Of a DNA stretch of 64,000 nucleotides, positions 43,316-64,000 are shown in pieces. The notes under the pieces are model-generated. The model was not told where the DNA came from and made no database searches. It worked only from the letters and a program-made list of their open reading frames with translations. The translations under genes and the position numbers were made by a program. The stretch is from Beroe forskalii (taxonomy: Eukaryota > Ctenophora > Nuda > Beroida > Beroidae). Position 1 is the stretch's first letter. Every line of letters starts with the position of its first letter. The stretch lies in contig WFMF01000162.1 in NCBI GenBank assembly GCA_011033025.1, positions 1 to 64,000 on the forward strand. The letters run 5' to 3'.

Positions 43316-43497
43316 AAGTTTATAACAAAAATATCTAGGAACCCCCCCTCATATCTATGTTCACTGCGATATAATATAATAGTATAATATGGTAGAGTAA
43401 CGAATTTTAGTTTTCATGATTAGACTTTCATTTTCAATCTTCACGTTATCCTCAAACATTAAACAACTTTCGCTTTAATGCCGTTTTTTCGAGTCAA

Positions 43498-45399
43498 ATG
43501 AAGTGGGTTTTTGCAACCCTATTGTTAACCATAGTCCCACCAACGTCTACCGAGACGCTATCTGAACTGGACTGTGCCAACGAAACAACACTCAGCAACG
43601 TTGGCGTTGATGCAGTGAAGGTGTTTAGTCTGGAACACAGGGCTGGCAGCTACAGTGACGATGAAGGTGCAGCCAATGACTTCCTCTGCTCTGTCGACGA
43701 AGACTTGCCTCATTCATGCAAGATCCTCATTAAATCGATGGAATTGTTACAAAAAGCAGAACTCTACATTGATGGAGTTCTACAAGGCAATGAAAGCGGT
43801 GTTTCCAGTAGATTAGAGATTGAGAAAGGGTTGAAAATCTTCAACTTCATCCTAGATTTTGAATCTCATAACAATTCCACTTTGTTTTGTGAGACTGTCA
43901 TCTCTGATCATCTGAGGTTAATCTCCAATCCCAAGTATATAAAGAGGGTGGATGAGCTCCACTCCGTGATGCTGAATACTTCCCAAACTGAAGTAACTGC
44001 TGGAAACCCCTACACGCTCAACTGTACGACTGATAATGAACGGGGACTGGCTTTCATGTATTGGCTTGAAAAAAGGAATGATGATCGTAACTGGTTAGAT
44101 TTGGAATGTACGAAAGAACGTGAGATGCTCTGCAACCAGACAGAAAACCCTCCCTCACAAATCATTACAATCCAAACAGATGCAGAGCTCGATGAAGAGA
44201 CAACCTACTCCTACTACTGCACGATCGACAATACTCACAGAAATCGGCCCAAGTCCAATGTTGTGAAAGTGCTCGTGAAACCTGCTGCCAAGCTTTGGCT
44301 GTATGGCGTCATCGGCGTAGCAGTGCTGGCAGCAGTGGCAATTGTGGTGTCATTGATCAGTGTGTATGTTGTGAAGGTCAGGAAGAAGTCCGTGATGAAA
44401 GCTGTGGTACTAAGCAGACACATGGCCGCTCTCACTCCTGTAAATGATATCGCTGCAGAGGAAGAAATCCTCTTAGCCACTAATATTGACTTTGATGAGA
44501 TCAATAGAATTAGGCAAAATATTGCATTGAAACATAGGGTTTGGTTGAGAGATCCACAGTCTATTTTGGAAAAAGAACAAATTGGCATGGGTAACTTTGG
44601 CATGGTTTTCTCTGGCACAATGCCCAATGAATATGGGATAATAACCAACGTAGCAATCAAGAAGATTAGAGAACAACGACTGAATGTTCGGGCATTGGAG
44701 GACTTTGAGAAAGAAATAAGCATGATGGCAGAAGTACACCACGAATACATTGTAGATTTGCTGGGAATCTGCCTAAGTCCTGACATTTGCATCATCACCG
44801 AACTCATGGAGCATGGACAGCTTGACTCGTACTTAGCAAAGTTAGCCCCGACTCCAGAAAACCGACTGGGAGGTATCCCCATCGGAATGTTAGCCAGAAT
44901 GTGCCAACAGCCATGCTCTGCCCTAGATTATCTGTCCGATAGAAACTTCGTTCACAGAGATGTCAGCGCTAGGAACTGCTTGGTTGGTACTGGTGGCCTG
45001 GTGAAACTCGCTGATTTCGGTCTGTCTCGGGACACCTCAGGAAGCAGTGCTAATTACTACATGAAGGTCGGGGAAATGGTTCCCGTGAAGTGGATGTCCC
45101 CTGAAGCCCTCCTCGGCAAATACACCTCGAGTAGTGACGTGTGGGCCTTCGGGGTGCTCTGCTGGGAGGTCTTCACTTTCGGGGGCCAGCCATTCGCCCA
45201 CCTCAGCAATGAGGAACTGGTAAAGAAGCTGTGTGGCAGTGAGGGAGTTGAGGGTGAGTGTCTCAGACTCCAGCGCCCCGAACTGTGCCCTGAGCCGTTG
45301 TGGGATGTCATTACCAAATGCTGGGCAGACGCCCCAGACGATAGGATAACCTTCTCTGCTCTGTGTGCTTACTTCTCTGATGCTTCCAAAGAGTTCTAA
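43498..45399 (+). CDS. Receptor tyrosine kinase with Ig-like ectodomain, intronless
   Basis: A single-exon 633-codon membrane receptor kinase. The first 20 residues are a signal peptide (MKWVFATLLLTIVPPTSTET). The ectodomain (to about 265) has spaced cysteines and N-glycosylation sites. The segment around 160-260 looks Ig-like (YTLNC ... YSYYC). A transmembrane helix (about 268-293, VIGVAVLAAVAIVVSLISVY) and a basic stop-transfer VRKKS follow. Kinase motifs are complete: IGMGNFGMV 362-370, VAIK with K388, alpha-C Glu near 406, HRDVSARN 486-493 with catalytic D488, DFG 506-508, a YY pair at 520-521 in the activation loop and PVKWMSPEAL at 529-538. The catalytic loop ARN form marks it as a receptor-type tyrosine kinase. 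There is almost no tail after the kinase domain. I cannot place it in a named vertebrate RTK family. It lies 182 bp downstream of the retroposed insertion. Confidence 0.93.
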   Translation: MKWVFATLLLTIVPPTSTETLSELDCANETTLSNVGVDAVKVFSLEHRAGSYSDDEGAANDFLCSVDEDLPHSCKILIKSMELLQKAELYIDGVLQGNESGVSSRLEIEKGLKIFNFILDFESHNNSTLFCETVISDHLRLISNPKYIKRVDELHSVMLNTSQTEVTAGNPYTLNCTTDNERGLAFMYWLEKRNDDRNWLDLECTKEREMLCNQTENPPSQIITIQTDAELDEETTYSYYCTIDNTHRNRPKSNVVKVLVKPAAKLWLYGVIGVAVLAAVAIVVSLISVYVVKVRKKSVMKAVVLSRHMAALTPVNDIAAEEEILLATNIDFDEINRIRQNIALKHRVWLRDPQSILEKEQIGMGNFGMVFSGTMPNEYGIITNVAIKKIREQRLNVRALEDFEKEISMMAEVHHEYIVDLLGICLSPDICIITELMEHGQLDSYLAKLAPTPENRLGGIPIGMLARMCQQPCSALDYLSDRNFVHRDVSARNCLVGTGGLVKLADFGLSRDTSGSSANYYMKVGEMVPVKWMSPEALLGKYTSSSDVWAFGVLCWEVFTFGGQPFAHLSNEELVKKLCGSEGVEGECLRLQRPELCPEPLWDVITKCWADAPDDRITFSALCAYFSDASKEF

Positions 45400-49034: not shown

Positions 49035-49068
49035 ATGGAACACTTCTTCAATCGAAAACCGACAAAAG
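49035..49068 (+). CDS. Candidate alternative first exon of the channel gene
   Basis: ATG 49035 gives MEHFFNRKPTK and ends at a strong donor (AAAAG|GTAAGT) in phase 1. Exon 2 of the channel gene (51290) also needs phase 1, so the join would read through in frame. It competes with the ATG exon at 51215-51241. Only transcript data can tell whether either or both are used. Confidence 0.3.
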
Positions 49069-51214: not shown

Positions 51215-54200
51215 ATGGACCTAGACCACAAGATTTTGTTGGTAAGTGTACATCAGGGGAACAGTTAAATAATTGTTTCCTTGTCTCAGGCTACATAGAA
51301 CTATCGAAAGAGATTGAAAAGACTCAGAACAACCGGCACATCACAGATGAGAATATCAAGGTTCCTAACCACATAAGTAAAGCAGCATGTTATGTGGAGG
51401 ATGCGAGAGATGGAAGGTTGGTTTATTACTTTATTAACAACACTGCAAATAGGCGGTTATAATGTCCTCGTTGTCATGGCTCAGTTAATGAATTAATGTT
51501 GTTAATGATGTTGAACCGGCCGCCAAGTTTTTACGCACGGGATTCATACTGCAAAAACATATGTTATAATTTTCTCTGAATGATACCAAACTTGTGTACT
51601 GAACTGAGGAGTTGTTGTTTTTTTGGTTGAACAAATTATCTTCATGTGATTTTGGCTTTTATCGTGTCTTTCATACGCCAGGCTTGAACCTGAGGGCAGT
51701 AAAAGAACACTATCTCCTCAGGTTGGCAAACGGGAAAGGGAAAATGTCAGAAAAATCACGGAAGATCCAACTGTAAGTACAATATCAGTGTTTTTAACTT
51801 AATAATAGGCCTCCCTCCGGGGTTCCCTTGATATCAGTGAATCCATTTGCACTAGACCCCTCCCCTTACAATGTCTCATACAGATCAGAAAACAAATCTG
51901 TGGATCGTAGAGTTACAAGTTTCCTTCATTTTTTCATGCATATTATCCTAAGGCTATCATTTTGTTGCTTATAATGCATATAAACCTCGGCTTGCCTCGT
52001 TTAATATGCACTATAGTAGTAGAGTACATCTTAGTACTGCTCTATAGCTATAAACATTGTTTATCAAATAACACAGAAGCACAGAACGATTTCAGTAGAA
52101 CTTGACATCCAAACTTTTATTCGGCGAGTCGTGCCGTTTTTTCACAAATTTTATTTCATCGACTTCGCCTTGTACAATGTAGTTTCATATTTTGAATGCG
52201 ATAATACCTTCTTGTACGGCCAACTTACCTAATACCTACTTGTGTTAATTGACGGAATCTGGGGTTTATAACTTAACATTGAAGGAATTGGCGCCCAATA
52301 ATCAGATTTCCGGTATATTTTACAAATTACAAAATACAAGTAAATTAAATAACTTACAATAATATTTGCTGCGGAATGTGGATGAAAATATGAGAAATAC
52401 TGATAATGCGTGAAATACCTTTCAATAACAGCTCTGGAAACAATTAATTGATAACATGCTTAATAACATTGAATATAGTAATTCACGTTGTTGAACTATT
52501 GCAATGAACCAGGAGTAATAGAAGAGAGCTGTTGTGGGTTTCAATAAAATGACTTGACAGTCGGTTGAATCTCCTCTGATTGACATTGTACCACCCTGTC
52601 AAATAACCAAAATTACACTAAATGTTTATTAAATTTGCTGAATGTTTCACAATATGTCATCATCAGGAATAATCAGGAAAGTTTTTGTCGTCGAATGAGT
52701 AGGCCAGCAAAATTCAAATGGTAGCCTGACCAACACTGTGGAACCTTGGAACTTTAAAATCTTGGACTTAAATAACCAGCCAAAAGAGTTTCGTAGTGTT
52801 TAGCTTCTTGCATAGTGCCAAGCGAAGTAAATCATGATTTTAATTTACACAGCGCACAGCGCGCTTCTTCTGAGACTTAAGCCTCCTAACTGGATGCTCG
52901 GTTCACTTACCTGCCCATCTAATCCTGGTGTATTTCAGGTGTTTCTTCATACAGACACACGACTGGTGTCCATCTAATCCCGGTGTATTTCAGGTGTTTC
53001 TTCATACAGACCCACGACTGGTGTCCATCTAATCCCGGTGTATTTCAGGTGTTTCTTCATACAGACACACGACTGGTGTCCATCTAATCCCGGTGTATTT
53101 CAGGTGTTTCTTCATACAGACACACGACTGGTGTCCATCTAATCCCGGTGTATTTCAGGTGTTTCTTCATACAGACACACGACTGGTGTCCATCTAATCC
53201 CGGTGTATTTCAGGTGTTTCTTCATACAGAAGTACAGACACACGACTGGTGTCCATCTAATCCTGGTGTATTTCAGGTGTTTCTTCATACAGACACACGA
53301 CTGGTGTCCATCTAATCCCGGTGTATTTCAGGTGTTTCTTCATACAGACCCACGACTGGTGTCCATCTAATCCCGGTGTATTTCAGGTGTTTCTTCATAC
53401 AGACCCACGACTGGTGTCCATCTAATCCCGGTGTATTTCAGGTGTTTCTTCTTACAGACCCACGACTGGTGTCCATCTAATCCTGGTGTATTTCAGGTGT
53501 TTCTTCATACAGACATACGACTGGTGTCCATCTAATCCCGGTGTATTTCAGGTGTTTCTTCATACAGACCCACGACTGGTGTCCATCTAATCCCGGTGTA
53601 TTTCAGGTGTTTCTTCATACAGACCCACGACTGGTGTCCATCTAATCCCGGTGTATTTCAGGTGTTTCTTCTTACAGACCCACGACTGGTGTCCATCTAA
53701 TCCTGGTGTATTTCAGGTGTTTCTTCATACAGACATACGACTGGTGTCCATCTAATCCCGGTGTATTTCAGGTGTTTCTTCATACAGACACACGACTGGT
53801 GTCCATCTAATCCCGGTGTATTTCAGGTGTTTCTTCATACAGACACACGACTGGTGTCCATCTAATCCCGGTGTATTTCAGGTGTTTCTTCATACAGACA
53901 CGACTGGTGTCCATCTAATCCTGGTGTATTTCAGGTGTTTCTTCATACAGACACACGACTGGTGTCCATCTAATCCCGGTGTATTTCAGGTGTTTCTTCA
54001 TACAGACCCGACTGGTGTCCATCTAATCCCGGTGTATTTCAGGTGTTTCTTCATACAGACCCACGACGTCCATCTAATCCCGGTGTATTTCAGGTGTTTC
54101 TTCTTACAGACCCACGACTGGTGTCCATCTAATCCTGGTGTATTTCAGGTGTTTCTTCATACAGACATACGACTGGTGTCCATCTAATCCCGGTGTATTT

Positions 54201-57200
54201 CAGGTGTTTCTTCACAGACCCACGACTGGTGTCCATCGACGGTGTATTTCAGGTGTTTCTTCATACAGACCCACGACTGGTGTCCATCTAATCCCGGTGT
54301 ATTTCAGGTGTTTCTTCATACAGACCCACGACTGGTGTCCATCTAATCCTGGTGTATTTCAGGTGTTTCTTCATACAGACACACGACTGGTGTCCATCTA
54401 ATCCCGGTGTATTTCAGGTGTTTCTTCATACAGACACACGACTGGTGTCCATCTAATCCTGGTGTATTTCAGGTGTTTCTTCATACAGACATACGACTGG
54501 TGTCCATCTAATCCTGGTGTATTTCAGGTGTTTCTTCATACAGACATACGACTGGTGTCCATCTAATCCTGGTGTATTTCAGGTGTTTCTTCATACAGAC
54601 ACACGACTGGTGGGCTCGGTTCATATACCTGTCCATAGTCTTCCTTGCCATCCTGATCTTCTTCGAGCCGCCCTCCTCTGCAGCCATCACAGTTTGTGAC
54701 CAGAGATTGTTCGACTTCTCCATGGATAATGAAATTTGTAAAAACAAGAGTATTATTAAAGAATGGGAGGCGTGGACTCTATTTGTTGAATTTTTATTAA
54801 TTATGGTTAGTAGAAGCTTGATTTACACCTATACTTCAAGTGTTGGGTATCATTCGCTCAATACTTCATGAGTTCATAGAGTAATTTGCTGAAATTACTA
54901 AATTATCCAATTAGAACTTAGCACTTGTAAGATGCTTGTATGCTACGGTTCAATAGTCGATACTTGATAATTCTTTATTAAATGAATACATATAATAGCA
55001 ACGTGAACCGGGTATTAAACGCTATCCGGTATTATCTAACCATCTGCTAAATCATAAATGTCACAAAATCACATACGAACGCTAATATTTGAGTATATAT
55101 GAATCTATTTATAAATCGTTGTTAAAATCCGATGAAGATTTTCCACTATTTGCAGATTTTTGTTACTGATGTGTTTATGAAAGCCACGTATATGAAACCG
55201 AGTGTCTACTTTACGAAAAAATGGCATAAGTAAGTTTCAACATTTATCTTTCTAATAGATTATCTTTAAACTCAATTCATATCACTCAAATTACTCGTTA
55301 AAGTTCAGTTCACAATATACCCAATTAAGTATTATAAATAAACTTTCATTATAACTAAGTATTTAATGATGATTTGAAATTTCGATACGATAGACTAAGC
55401 TATTCTTCTATTCTTTTGCGTCCAAAACGAAGTATCTATGAACTATCTGGGCCGAGTTATGATACCGGAATACACGAATTGCATCCGCCATGTCTTGTGA
55501 AAGAGCGAAAATCAGTGTATTGCCATAGCTCTTTCCGGTGTATTGTATGCCATAATATGTTTATTAATAACAAGTCCTATAAAAACATAGCCATTACTGC
55601 TCCTTTGCGCCCAAAACGAAGACTCTACGAACTTCCTGGGCTGAGATATTAGAACTGCCTTTGCCATGTCTGGCAAATGACTGAAAATCAATTTATGGCC
55701 CATAACTTTGTTCCTGAGCGCTATGGGGCATATATCCGGAAAGAATTGTATAGAAACATGACCTTTGCGATTCTTTTGCTCCCAAAACGAAGTCTCTACG
55801 ACCTTCCTGGGCCGAGATACAAAAATTACATCCGTAATGTCTTGCGAATGACCAAAAAATTAGTTTTTCGCCAATTACTTTGTTCCTGAGCATTTAAGGG
55901 GCATATATTCAGGAAGAATTGTATAAAAACATGGACTTTGCAATTCTTTTTTGCCCAAAACGAAGTCTCTACGACCTTCCTGGGCCGAGATACAAAATTG
56001 CCTCTGAACTGTATATTGCACTTCACTGAACAAGTGGTTCTCGGCCCATAACTTTGTTCCTGAGCACTATGGGGCATATATCCAGAAAGAATAGTATAAA
56101 AACATGACCTTTGCCATTCTTTTGCGCCCAAAACGAAGTCTCTACGACCTTCCTGGGCCGAGATACAAAAATTACATCCGCCATGTCTTGCGAATGACCA
56201 AAAAATTAGTTTTTCGCCAATAACTTTGTTCCTGAGCATTTAAGGTCATAAATTCAGGAAGAATTGTATAAAAACATGGCCTTTGCGATTCTTTTGCACC
56301 CAAAACGAAGTCTCTACGACCTTCCTGAGCCGAGATACAGAAAATCAATAAGCGTATAACAGAAAAAAGGCGTGGCCGATTTGGGCCTGTTGCCAACAAA
56401 AATTTCGTTGGCAACAAGGCCCATTTATTTTTGATGGTCTTAATTACCAAAATCAGTCGAGAAAACGCTTTTAACAAAGAAATCTAACGACTGAGCTTTT
56501 TTGGGGGTTTGGTCTTTGACTACAAGAAAGCAAGAAATAGCAATCTGCTCCGCCTATAAAAGTCCTATGATTCGATATTTAGGAATACATAATATTTAGG
56601 AATACATTAAACACTCAACACACACATTCTCACATCCATATATCATTACACATTTTCTGTGTTATGTTAATGAGTGATTTGTGTTCATTAGCTCCCTAAA
56701 ATGCTGGGTATACCAGCCTCTAGACTTGATATATTATCATTATTATTGTATACACGTTCAGTGTCTTAGAGACTAGATACTAGATAATTTATAAATCATA
56801 TTCATTATTATGTGCTAGGTTAACTATGTGATAAAAGCTGTGTGTAATGTGATTACACACACACGCACACATACACACGTGTACATTATATATAAGCCTC
56901 GTATCACTCTGTAACATGATTAGTGTTGAAGTGCTAGCAGCACACATTGCTTTTACATGCAGCAATACTCAGCCTACTGCGAATATTATTATGATATGTG
57001 TTATCAACCCCGGAACGCGAGGTAGCGCTGCTGCTAGTTGTTTGTGCGCAGTTTTGAGAAACGCAGCAATTCTGCAACAATATTGCCCGATTTCATAGGC
57101 TAAACTTCAGATAGAGTAATTTTGAAGGTGGCCATTCGATAGAGCACAGCATAGGGAGTCCAGTGGTGAAGAGATCATTTGAATACGCCTTTTATGATCA

Positions 57201-63200: not shown

Positions 63201-64000
63201 ATGTCTCCCTCAGAAACCCTATCGTAAACCCTCATGAATGATTTACTGTTGTTTCATCAGGGAGGTGTTTATTAATAATCGAGGTGTTCAAGGGAGCATT
63301 AGATAAATCTAATGCCCCCTTGGACACTTTACTTCACCTCTAACAAAGTAACAAGGAATGCCCCCTCTTCTAACAAAGTAACAAGGAATGCCCCTCTTCT
63401 AACAAAGTAACAAGGAATGCCCCCTCTTCTAACAAAGTAACAAGGAATGCCCCCTCTTCTAACAAAGTAACAAGGAATGCCCCCTCTTCTAACAAAGTAA
63501 CAAGGAATACCCCCTCTTCTAACAAAGTAACAAGGAATGCCCCCCTTCTAACAAAGTAACAAGGAATGCCCCCTCTTCTAACAAAGTAACAAGGAATTCC
63601 CCCTCTTCCCTTCTAACAAAGTAACAAGGAATGCCCCCTCTTCTAACAAAGTAACAAGGAATGCCCCATCTTCTAACAAAGTAACAAGTGATGCCCCTCT
63701 TCTAAAGTTCTAACAAAGTAACAAGGAATGCCCCCTCTTCTAACAAAGTAACAAGGAATGCCCCCTCTTCACTTCTAACAAAGTAACAAGGAATGCCCCC
63801 TCTTCTTACAAAGTAACAAGGAATGCCCCCTCTTCTAACAAAGTAACAAGGAATGCCCCTCTTCCCTTCTAACAAAATAACAAGTTGTACTCCTCTAACT
63901 CCCCCTTAATTTCAGCTGAGGTTCAGCAGGCCGTTCCGTCCGATCCTGCTCCTCACGCGTTACCGTGAGTTACGGCGTATCCTGGAGACGCTGACCGACA
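51215..64000 (+). CDS. Two-pore-channel-like cation channel, first seven exons
   Basis: TPC proteins are endolysosomal cation channels with two six-helix repeats. Exons: 51215-51241 (starts at ATG, TAG just before it), 51290-51416, 51682-51772, 54599-54805, 55156-55229, 63007-63088 and 63916 to the window end. Phases agree at every join (1, 2, 0, 0, 2, 0). Exon 2 holds SKAACYVEDARDGR, like the family's N-terminal AA-Y-EDA motif. Exon 4 gives WWARFIYLSIVFLAILIFFE and PPSSAAIT, matching S1 and the E-PPS turn, then S2. Exon 5 is S2-S3, exon 6 is S3 (ATFFILLFSIDWIIFTCTYY) and exon 7 is the S4 segment LRFSRPFRPILLLTRYRELR. Its arginines and RELRRIL follow the TPC pattern better than that of classical calcium channels. 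Donors are GTAAGT-like except GTTGGT at 51417 and GTTAGT at 54806. The introns are full of repeats. The rest of the gene lies outside. Confidence 0.75.
52917..54612 (+). repeat. 55-bp minisatellite derived from the exon 4 splice acceptor
   Basis: About 31 units of 55 bp (some 50-66) each run ACACACGACTGGTGTCCATC, then TAATCCCGGTGTATTTCAG, then GTGTTTCTTCATACAG. The last unit passes straight into exon 4 at 54599. The GACTGGTG of the unit is the exon's own start, and TCCAT is found 19 bases further into the exon, so the unit equals the acceptor plus exon start with 19 bp removed. A diverged undeleted copy of that exon start lies at the other edge (52888-52918). Variation is mostly single bases (CACACG, CCCACG, CATACG). 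Confidence 0.95.
55385..56345 (+). repeat. Satellite of about 180 bp in the channel gene's fifth intron
   Basis: Five to six units share CCCAAAACGAAGTCTCTACG, ACCTTCCTGGGCCGAGATAC, then CATAACTTTGTTCCTGAGC and AGAATTGTATAAAAACATG. Unit length is about 160-190 bp. Open frames across it on either strand arise from the repeat and are not genes. Confidence 0.9.
56346..57004. other. Intron sequence, no gene
   Basis: A small hairpin (GTTGCCAAC ... GTTGGCAAC near 56388-56415) and a CA-rich patch at 56855-56880 are the only features. TTAT at 57001-57004 is the left target duplication of the next element. Confidence 0.5.
57710..58830. repeat. Inner palindromic GGGCTTCACC / GGGAGCCCAAATTAG repeats
   Basis: The left half (57710-58215) is C-rich with GGGCTTCACC, GGCTCCACCGAACC and ACTAACGTGGGCTCCC words. 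The right half (58390-58930) answers in complement with GGGGAGCCCAAATTAGTATG words. Specific matches include CCACCTCATTGCCGGGCTTC at the left edge against GGAGCCGGGCAATGAGGTG near the right. The whole could fold into a long irregular stem. Confidence 0.75.
59036..59442. mobile_element. MITE of about 400 bp, possibly Tc1/mariner-type
   Basis: The left end reads CAGGGTGCGCCAAAGTCTTGACC after a TA. The right end reads GGTCAAAACTTTGGCGCAC and is followed by TATAG. Pairing continues inward (GATCATTCGAAAAATACAG against its complement, GAATGGCGGATTCTGAG against a diverged complement), so most of the element is one stem. TA at both borders would suit a Tc1/mariner relative. Confidence 0.7.
59839..61434. 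mobile_element. Non-autonomous hAT-like element with GGCCGGGG repeats
   Basis: The ends are inverted: CAGTGGTCGACCGGGG on the left, CCCCGGTCGACCCCTG on the right. GTACCTAC flanks both (59831-59838, 61435-61442), an 8-bp duplication as in hAT elements. Near each end are clusters of GGCCGGGGCCGGGG (59862-59970 and 61260-61425). The interior has five units of about 150 bp with GCAGGGGTCTGGGGGCGGCA and GAAGCCAGACGACCTG, the same core unit as the element at 33477-34757. No transposase is present. Confidence 0.88.
62674..62841. mobile_element. 168-bp MITE with TTA target duplication
   Basis: GAGCATGGC and GCCATGCTC form the ends, and TTA lies on both sides (62671-62673, 62842-62844), the duplication expected of PIF/Harbinger relatives. 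Inside, CGCTAATA and TATTAGCG pair, followed by three hairpins of the pattern TTATTGCACGAGG ... CGAGTGCAATAA (the middle one with TTGTCGCACG). Confidence 0.75.
63349..63890. repeat. 30-bp minisatellite just upstream of channel exon 7
   Basis: About 18 units of TCTAACAAAGTAACAAGGAA followed by TGCCCCCTCT run to about 25 bases before the exon 7 acceptor. Several units carry small insertions (CCCTTCTAAC). The C/T-rich part of each unit reads like a polypyrimidine tract on the coding strand. Confidence 0.95.

Follow-up and report, generated by a model that had tools for sequence, protein, structure and literature searches.

How does a gene come to carry a long row of splice acceptors in front of a single exon, and what would direct splicing to the last of them? 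The question is raised by a tandem array that fills the end of intron 3 of a gene in Beroe forskalii. The gene lies in a stretch of 64,000 nucleotides of contig WFMF01000162.1, referred to below as the window. Exons, splice sites and array features are all given on its forward (+) strand, counted from its first letter, and a slash within a sequence marks a splice site.

Judged by its translation, the host gene is a two-pore-channel-like ion-channel gene. The N-terminal concatenation of 250 residues matches the Pfam family Ion_trans (PF00520, 4e-10). With a concatenation of exon translations of 720 residues, the three best matches in the PDB are two pore channels 3, 2 and 2 (1.7e-14, 1e-11 and 1e-11), and T-type calcium channels come next, from 2.5e-10. 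An Ion_trans domain and a two-pore channel (TPC) as the best match among solved structures, which together mark a TPC gene, are both present. The 250-residue part alone gives a weak match to TPC1 (0.018). Exon 4 alone has no match in Pfam, and a PDB search with an early, partly wrong protein model (51290-51455 plus exon 4) returned no match.

A second, related gene is located on contig C316 of the same genome and was found both with exon 4 alone and with a partly wrong model of exons 2-4. Exons 1-4 were placed by piecewise alignment of the window gene with this paralogue. Exon 1 (49035..49068, MEHFFNRKPTK, donor AAG/GTAAGT) is based on the alignment and on the boundary contexts, and exon 2 (51290..51416, donor AAG/GTTGGT) on the alignment and the reading frame. 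Exon 3 (51722..51772, 51 nt, donor ACT/GTAAGT) is absent from the original prediction; its translation RLANGKGKMSEKSRKIQL matches RLNNGKGSMSETSKRIQL of the paralogue (E 1.2e-4). Exon 4 (54583..54805, 223 nt) ends at the donor ATG/GTTAGT. With these boundaries exons 1-4 join in phase and form one open frame. Intron 3 (51773..54582) is 2810 nt long, and the array makes up its 3' 59% (52915-54582). Two candidate features were discarded on the way to this model. The stretch 51290-51455 (ending in NNTANRR) had been considered as a single exon joined to exon 4, but the paralogue alignment ends exon 2 at 51416 and separates exon 3. The stretch 51241-51289 had been considered as a 49-nt intron, by which short introns would be normal here; it was rejected because exon 1 joins straight to 51290 in phase.

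The intron between exons 2 and 3 (51417-51721, 305 nt) is present in the window gene and absent from the paralogue. The short direct repeat AGGTTGG stands at both of its ends. No further copy of this intron was found in the genome, and comparison with the neighbouring exons gave no similarity (best local match 7 bases). It may have been gained in the window gene or lost in the paralogue.

The position of the exon 4 acceptor decides how the array is read. In the paralogue the exon starts CAG/G TTT TTC TTC ATC CAA ACA CAC, and the corresponding stretch of the window is CAG/G TGT TTC TTC ATA CAG ACA CAC. The encoded FFIQTH is identical, and the FFIQ stretch differs by two synonymous changes (ATA for ATC and CAG for CAA). 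The original prediction had taken TTTCTTCATACAG as the acceptor and 54599 as the first base of the exon. That segment is pyrimidine-rich and ends in CAG, and an exon starting at 54599 would read ACA CAC GAC, which is the correct exon frame. The paralogue, however, codes for F-F-I-Q at this place with CAA, so that no AG exists there and TTTCTTCATACAG is read as coding sequence. Furthermore, exon 3 ends in phase 2, and its junction to 54599 leads to a stop 12 codons on, within exon 4, whereas a start at 54583 keeps the frame open. An acceptor at TTTCTTCATACAG is therefore highly improbable. By homology and frame, the acceptor is inferred to be GTATTTCAG/GTG, 16 nt upstream of the predicted one. 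The putative 3' splice region TCCATCTAATCCTGGTGTATTTCAG (54558..54582) is homologous to CAG/GTTTTTCTTC of the paralogue. An in-frame microexon of 39 nt per unit, which had been built on the acceptor TTTCTTCATACAG, was dropped.

TRF describes the array as a 55-bp minisatellite with 31.0 copies and 95% matches (52915..54612). The copies stand head to tail and the unit lies within the 10-100 bp that define a minisatellite. Each unit pairs the final 25 nt of intron 3 with the opening 30 nt of exon 4. The real boundary itself forms the last unit, which continues straight into exon 4 without a break, as had been predicted from the sequence. The predicted join of the units to TCCAT, a sequence situated 19 bases further into the exon, is likewise found, at a GGTG-TCCAT junction; a small deletion affects this junction in one unit. 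The spacing between successive TTTCAG/GTG sites is 55 bp in 25 of 30 cases and 49, 51, 53, 53 and 63 bp in the others. Two four-unit blocks of 220 bp (53348-53567 and 53568-53787) are adjacent and identical, which indicates that duplication of several units at once contributed to the growth of the array.

The decoy stretch, which opens with the first decoy exon start and closes where the exon part of the last decoy ends (52939..54557), contains 30 decoy acceptors TTTCAG/GTG, with exon starts from 52939 to 54528. The row of decoys noticed at the outset is thus real, but its size of about 31 has to be corrected: 31 is the number of all TTTCAG/GTG sites, 30 decoys and the real one. Over positions -25 to +6, eight of the 30 decoys match the real site exactly, 21 depart from it by one base and one is broken. 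CTAAT, which we take to be a branch-site-like motif, lies within the 25 nt that end intron 3, and 29 of the 30 decoys have kept it. By sequence, the decoys reproduce the real 3' splice region almost completely, as GTATTTCAG/GTG with CTAAT upstream. From -12 to +12, 26 of 30 are identical to it, and the site itself therefore gives no reason for choosing the last one. The unit boundaries all read TTTCAGGTG (31/31), with AG/GT at each.

Further repeats are found in the same gene. In intron 6, a second minisatellite (63339-63884; TRF) consists of 17.6 copies of the 30-bp unit TCTAACAAAGTAACAAGGAATGCCCCCTCT and stops some 30 nt short of the acceptor of the following exon, which starts at 63916. The branch-site-like TCTAAC is part of the 30-bp unit, and a further TCTAAC (63894-63899) lies 16 nt before the acceptor end of that exon. 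A 24-base probe matched this minisatellite alone (13 of 13 matches). Going by its sequence, what is repeated here may be a branch-point region. Intron 5 contains a 173-bp tandem repeat of 4.3 copies (55604-56345). Elsewhere in the window, an open frame of 659 codons (43420-45399) is receptor-tyrosine-kinase-like, with a transmembrane stretch and the motifs HRDVSARN and DFG recognized by eye.

The left edge of the array preserves a trace of its origin. A diverged exon start that had escaped the deletion had been predicted here, and 52895..52913 indeed corresponds to the 19 bases that the units lack, positions 31-49 of exon 4 (16/19 identical). This remnant stands in register ahead of the first unit. 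Across the window (127,964 positions, both strands), the exon itself is the only other place where a 19-mer attains 15/19 or more against these bases. When the whole of exon 4 was used as the query, the left-edge match was equalled by 4 of 1214 other window stretches; when the exon part absent from the units was used, none of the 1214 equalled it. When 52815-52918 is aligned with the real boundary, the score is 42, compared with a maximum of 31 in 2000 shuffles, and this score comes mostly from the 19-bp match and the adjoining bases. The part 52815-52895 alone has no significant similarity to the boundary (551 of 2000 shuffles scored as high), and homology upstream of ~52889 is only suggestive. 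The remnant points to an ancestral unit of ~74 bp that lost 19 bp. It supports the loss that the original prediction had proposed, with the order of duplication and deletion being deduced from the present arrangement.

Did the boundary give rise to the array, or did a repeat bring the boundary? If a dispersed repeat or transposable element had invaded the boundary and the exon had taken on its sequence, related copies could be found elsewhere, and such copies had been named beforehand as the finding that would speak against a duplicated boundary. In the 216-Mb genome, probes for the unit match this array only, which lies on the contig labelled C206. An exact 27-base probe gave at least 11 matches, a 165-base probe at least 14 and a 25-base probe with up to 3 mismatches at least 31, and all matches of each probe (11/11, 14/14 and 31/31) fall in the array. 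For the intron to the left of the array (51773-52914), there is one weak match (C1002, 79% over 67 bases), which covers 51952-52018 and not the array edge. In addition, the paralogue has the exon part of the unit as coding sequence, and this part is therefore taken to be older than the array. A tandem-repeat scan of the corresponding intron in the paralogue (338 nt) showed no array there. Invasion by a repeat is accordingly hardly credible, and the comparison supports the direction from boundary to array, as the original prediction had held.

Use of the decoys would as a rule be harmful to the product. Translated through to the real donor, with no further splicing, each of the 30 TTTCAG decoys leads to a stop codon, and insertion of one to six units gave a stop in all six trials. 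The units also carry a secondary AG, ATACAG, which is the acceptor of the original prediction. Its use would give a stop codon in 30 cases out of 31. The one that keeps the frame open belongs to the last decoy unit (54538..54543); an exon start at 54544 would add 13 residues. On paper, misuse of the array is thus not always harmful. The AG at 54543 might even serve an alternative isoform, in which the channel would gain 13 residues ahead of its first membrane segment. This is the sole open frame among the secondary AGs, but one in 31 can easily arise by chance and the paralogue has no such insertion, which makes a functional isoform very unlikely.

The array is probably a tolerated, passive minisatellite that arose from the boundary of the two-pore-channel-like gene. 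The stretch across the junction of intron 3 with exon 4 would have been duplicated in tandem, probably between two CCAT motifs. From a first duplicated unit of ~74 bp, one copy would have been shortened by 19 bp, and the 55-bp unit so produced would then have been amplified to 31 copies, partly in blocks of four. Exon 4 would be defined from its own donor at 54806, and the nearest acceptor (54582) would be favoured for this reason. Occasional use of a nearby decoy would presumably give longer exons with premature stops, and these transcripts would be degraded. We infer that this choice of acceptor and the degradation allow the array to be tolerated.

The same premature stops could also make the array an expression control. 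If decoys were used to a substantial extent, the yield of channel protein would fall and the copy number would tune expression. All 30 decoys lead to premature stops, and 29 of them are at most one base from the real site over -25 to +6. The array gives no evidence of selection, however, five of the 30 acceptor spacings deviate from 55, and the branch-site motif is lost in one decoy. Tuning by copy number is therefore an unlikely alternative. A broader version regards the array as a live splicing element, since its boundaries read AG/GT and the 30 decoys give a premature stop unless the transcript is spliced again. Here the copy number would set the amount of productive mRNA through ~30 competing acceptors, possibly with re-splicing of several units, and the AG before 54544 could add a channel longer by 13 residues. 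This version is doubtful to the same degree.

The AG/GT at every unit boundary makes stepwise splicing conceivable. The boundary CAG/GTGTTT would serve as acceptor and donor, each unit would be a GT...AG segment, and the array would be removed step by step, ending at the real exon. The correct mRNA would result whichever decoy was used first; all 31 boundaries read TTTCAGGTG, and CTAAT is kept in 29 of 30 decoys. The donor, on the other hand, is poor. GTGTTT has T at +4 and +5, and T occurs at neither position in any of 14 placed donors of the window gene and its paralogue, a set that was placed base by base, partly by looking for good donors, and that covers some of the later introns of both genes. 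The donor rebuilt after a first step would be ACT/GTGTTT, which is weak. The unit is also short: at 55 nt it compares with 118 nt for the shortest placed intron (n=14) and with 132 nt for the shortest estimated Cpn60_TCP1 intron (n=26), the latter by an estimate that can miss very short introns. For that estimate 41 of 45 match rows were entered; the four omitted rows were two isolated matches and two that ran nearly full length in a single frame. Judged by these sequence features, removal of the array unit by unit looks unlikely, and such a mechanism is given less weight than an effect of copy number on expression. The passive minisatellite is the preferred explanation.

Whatever its effect, the locus places ~30 near-identical 3' splice regions before one exon and thereby offers a natural experiment on acceptor choice without local discrimination. 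The array could separate the influence of the distance to the upstream donor from that of the distance to the downstream donor. A minisatellite seeded by the gene's own boundary also represents a step towards intron growth.

Parts of this arrangement have counterparts in known systems. The human interferon-induced gene 6-16 (IFI6/G1P3) reportedly contains a minisatellite that supplies several splice donors (Nucleic Acids Res 1995;23:1854). As in the present array, one of the gene's splice sites is included in the units; there it is the donor, here the acceptor. In the potato RdRp gene, a tandem duplication across an intron-exon boundary made a new intron (Ma, Lan and Niu 2016, PMC4974935). The duplicated segment likewise comprises the 3' side of an intron and the 5' side of the next exon, with a putative branch site, tract and 3' splice site. 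The potato duplication recruited a GTAAG donor from the upstream exon, whereas the array consists of 31 copies of a short unit that has no strong donor. The same article also describes multi-copy AGGT repeats in fission yeast that are spanned by introns (PMC4974935). These resemble the array in being tandem units that carry AGGT and lie within an intron. They have an exonic source and few copies, whereas the source of the array straddles an existing boundary. No acceptor-bearing array of this size is evident in the literature surveyed, seen in part and with most subscription journals outside its coverage. Boundary duplication, AGGT repeats and a donor minisatellite are thus already known, and what is new here is an acceptor-bearing array of 31 copies.
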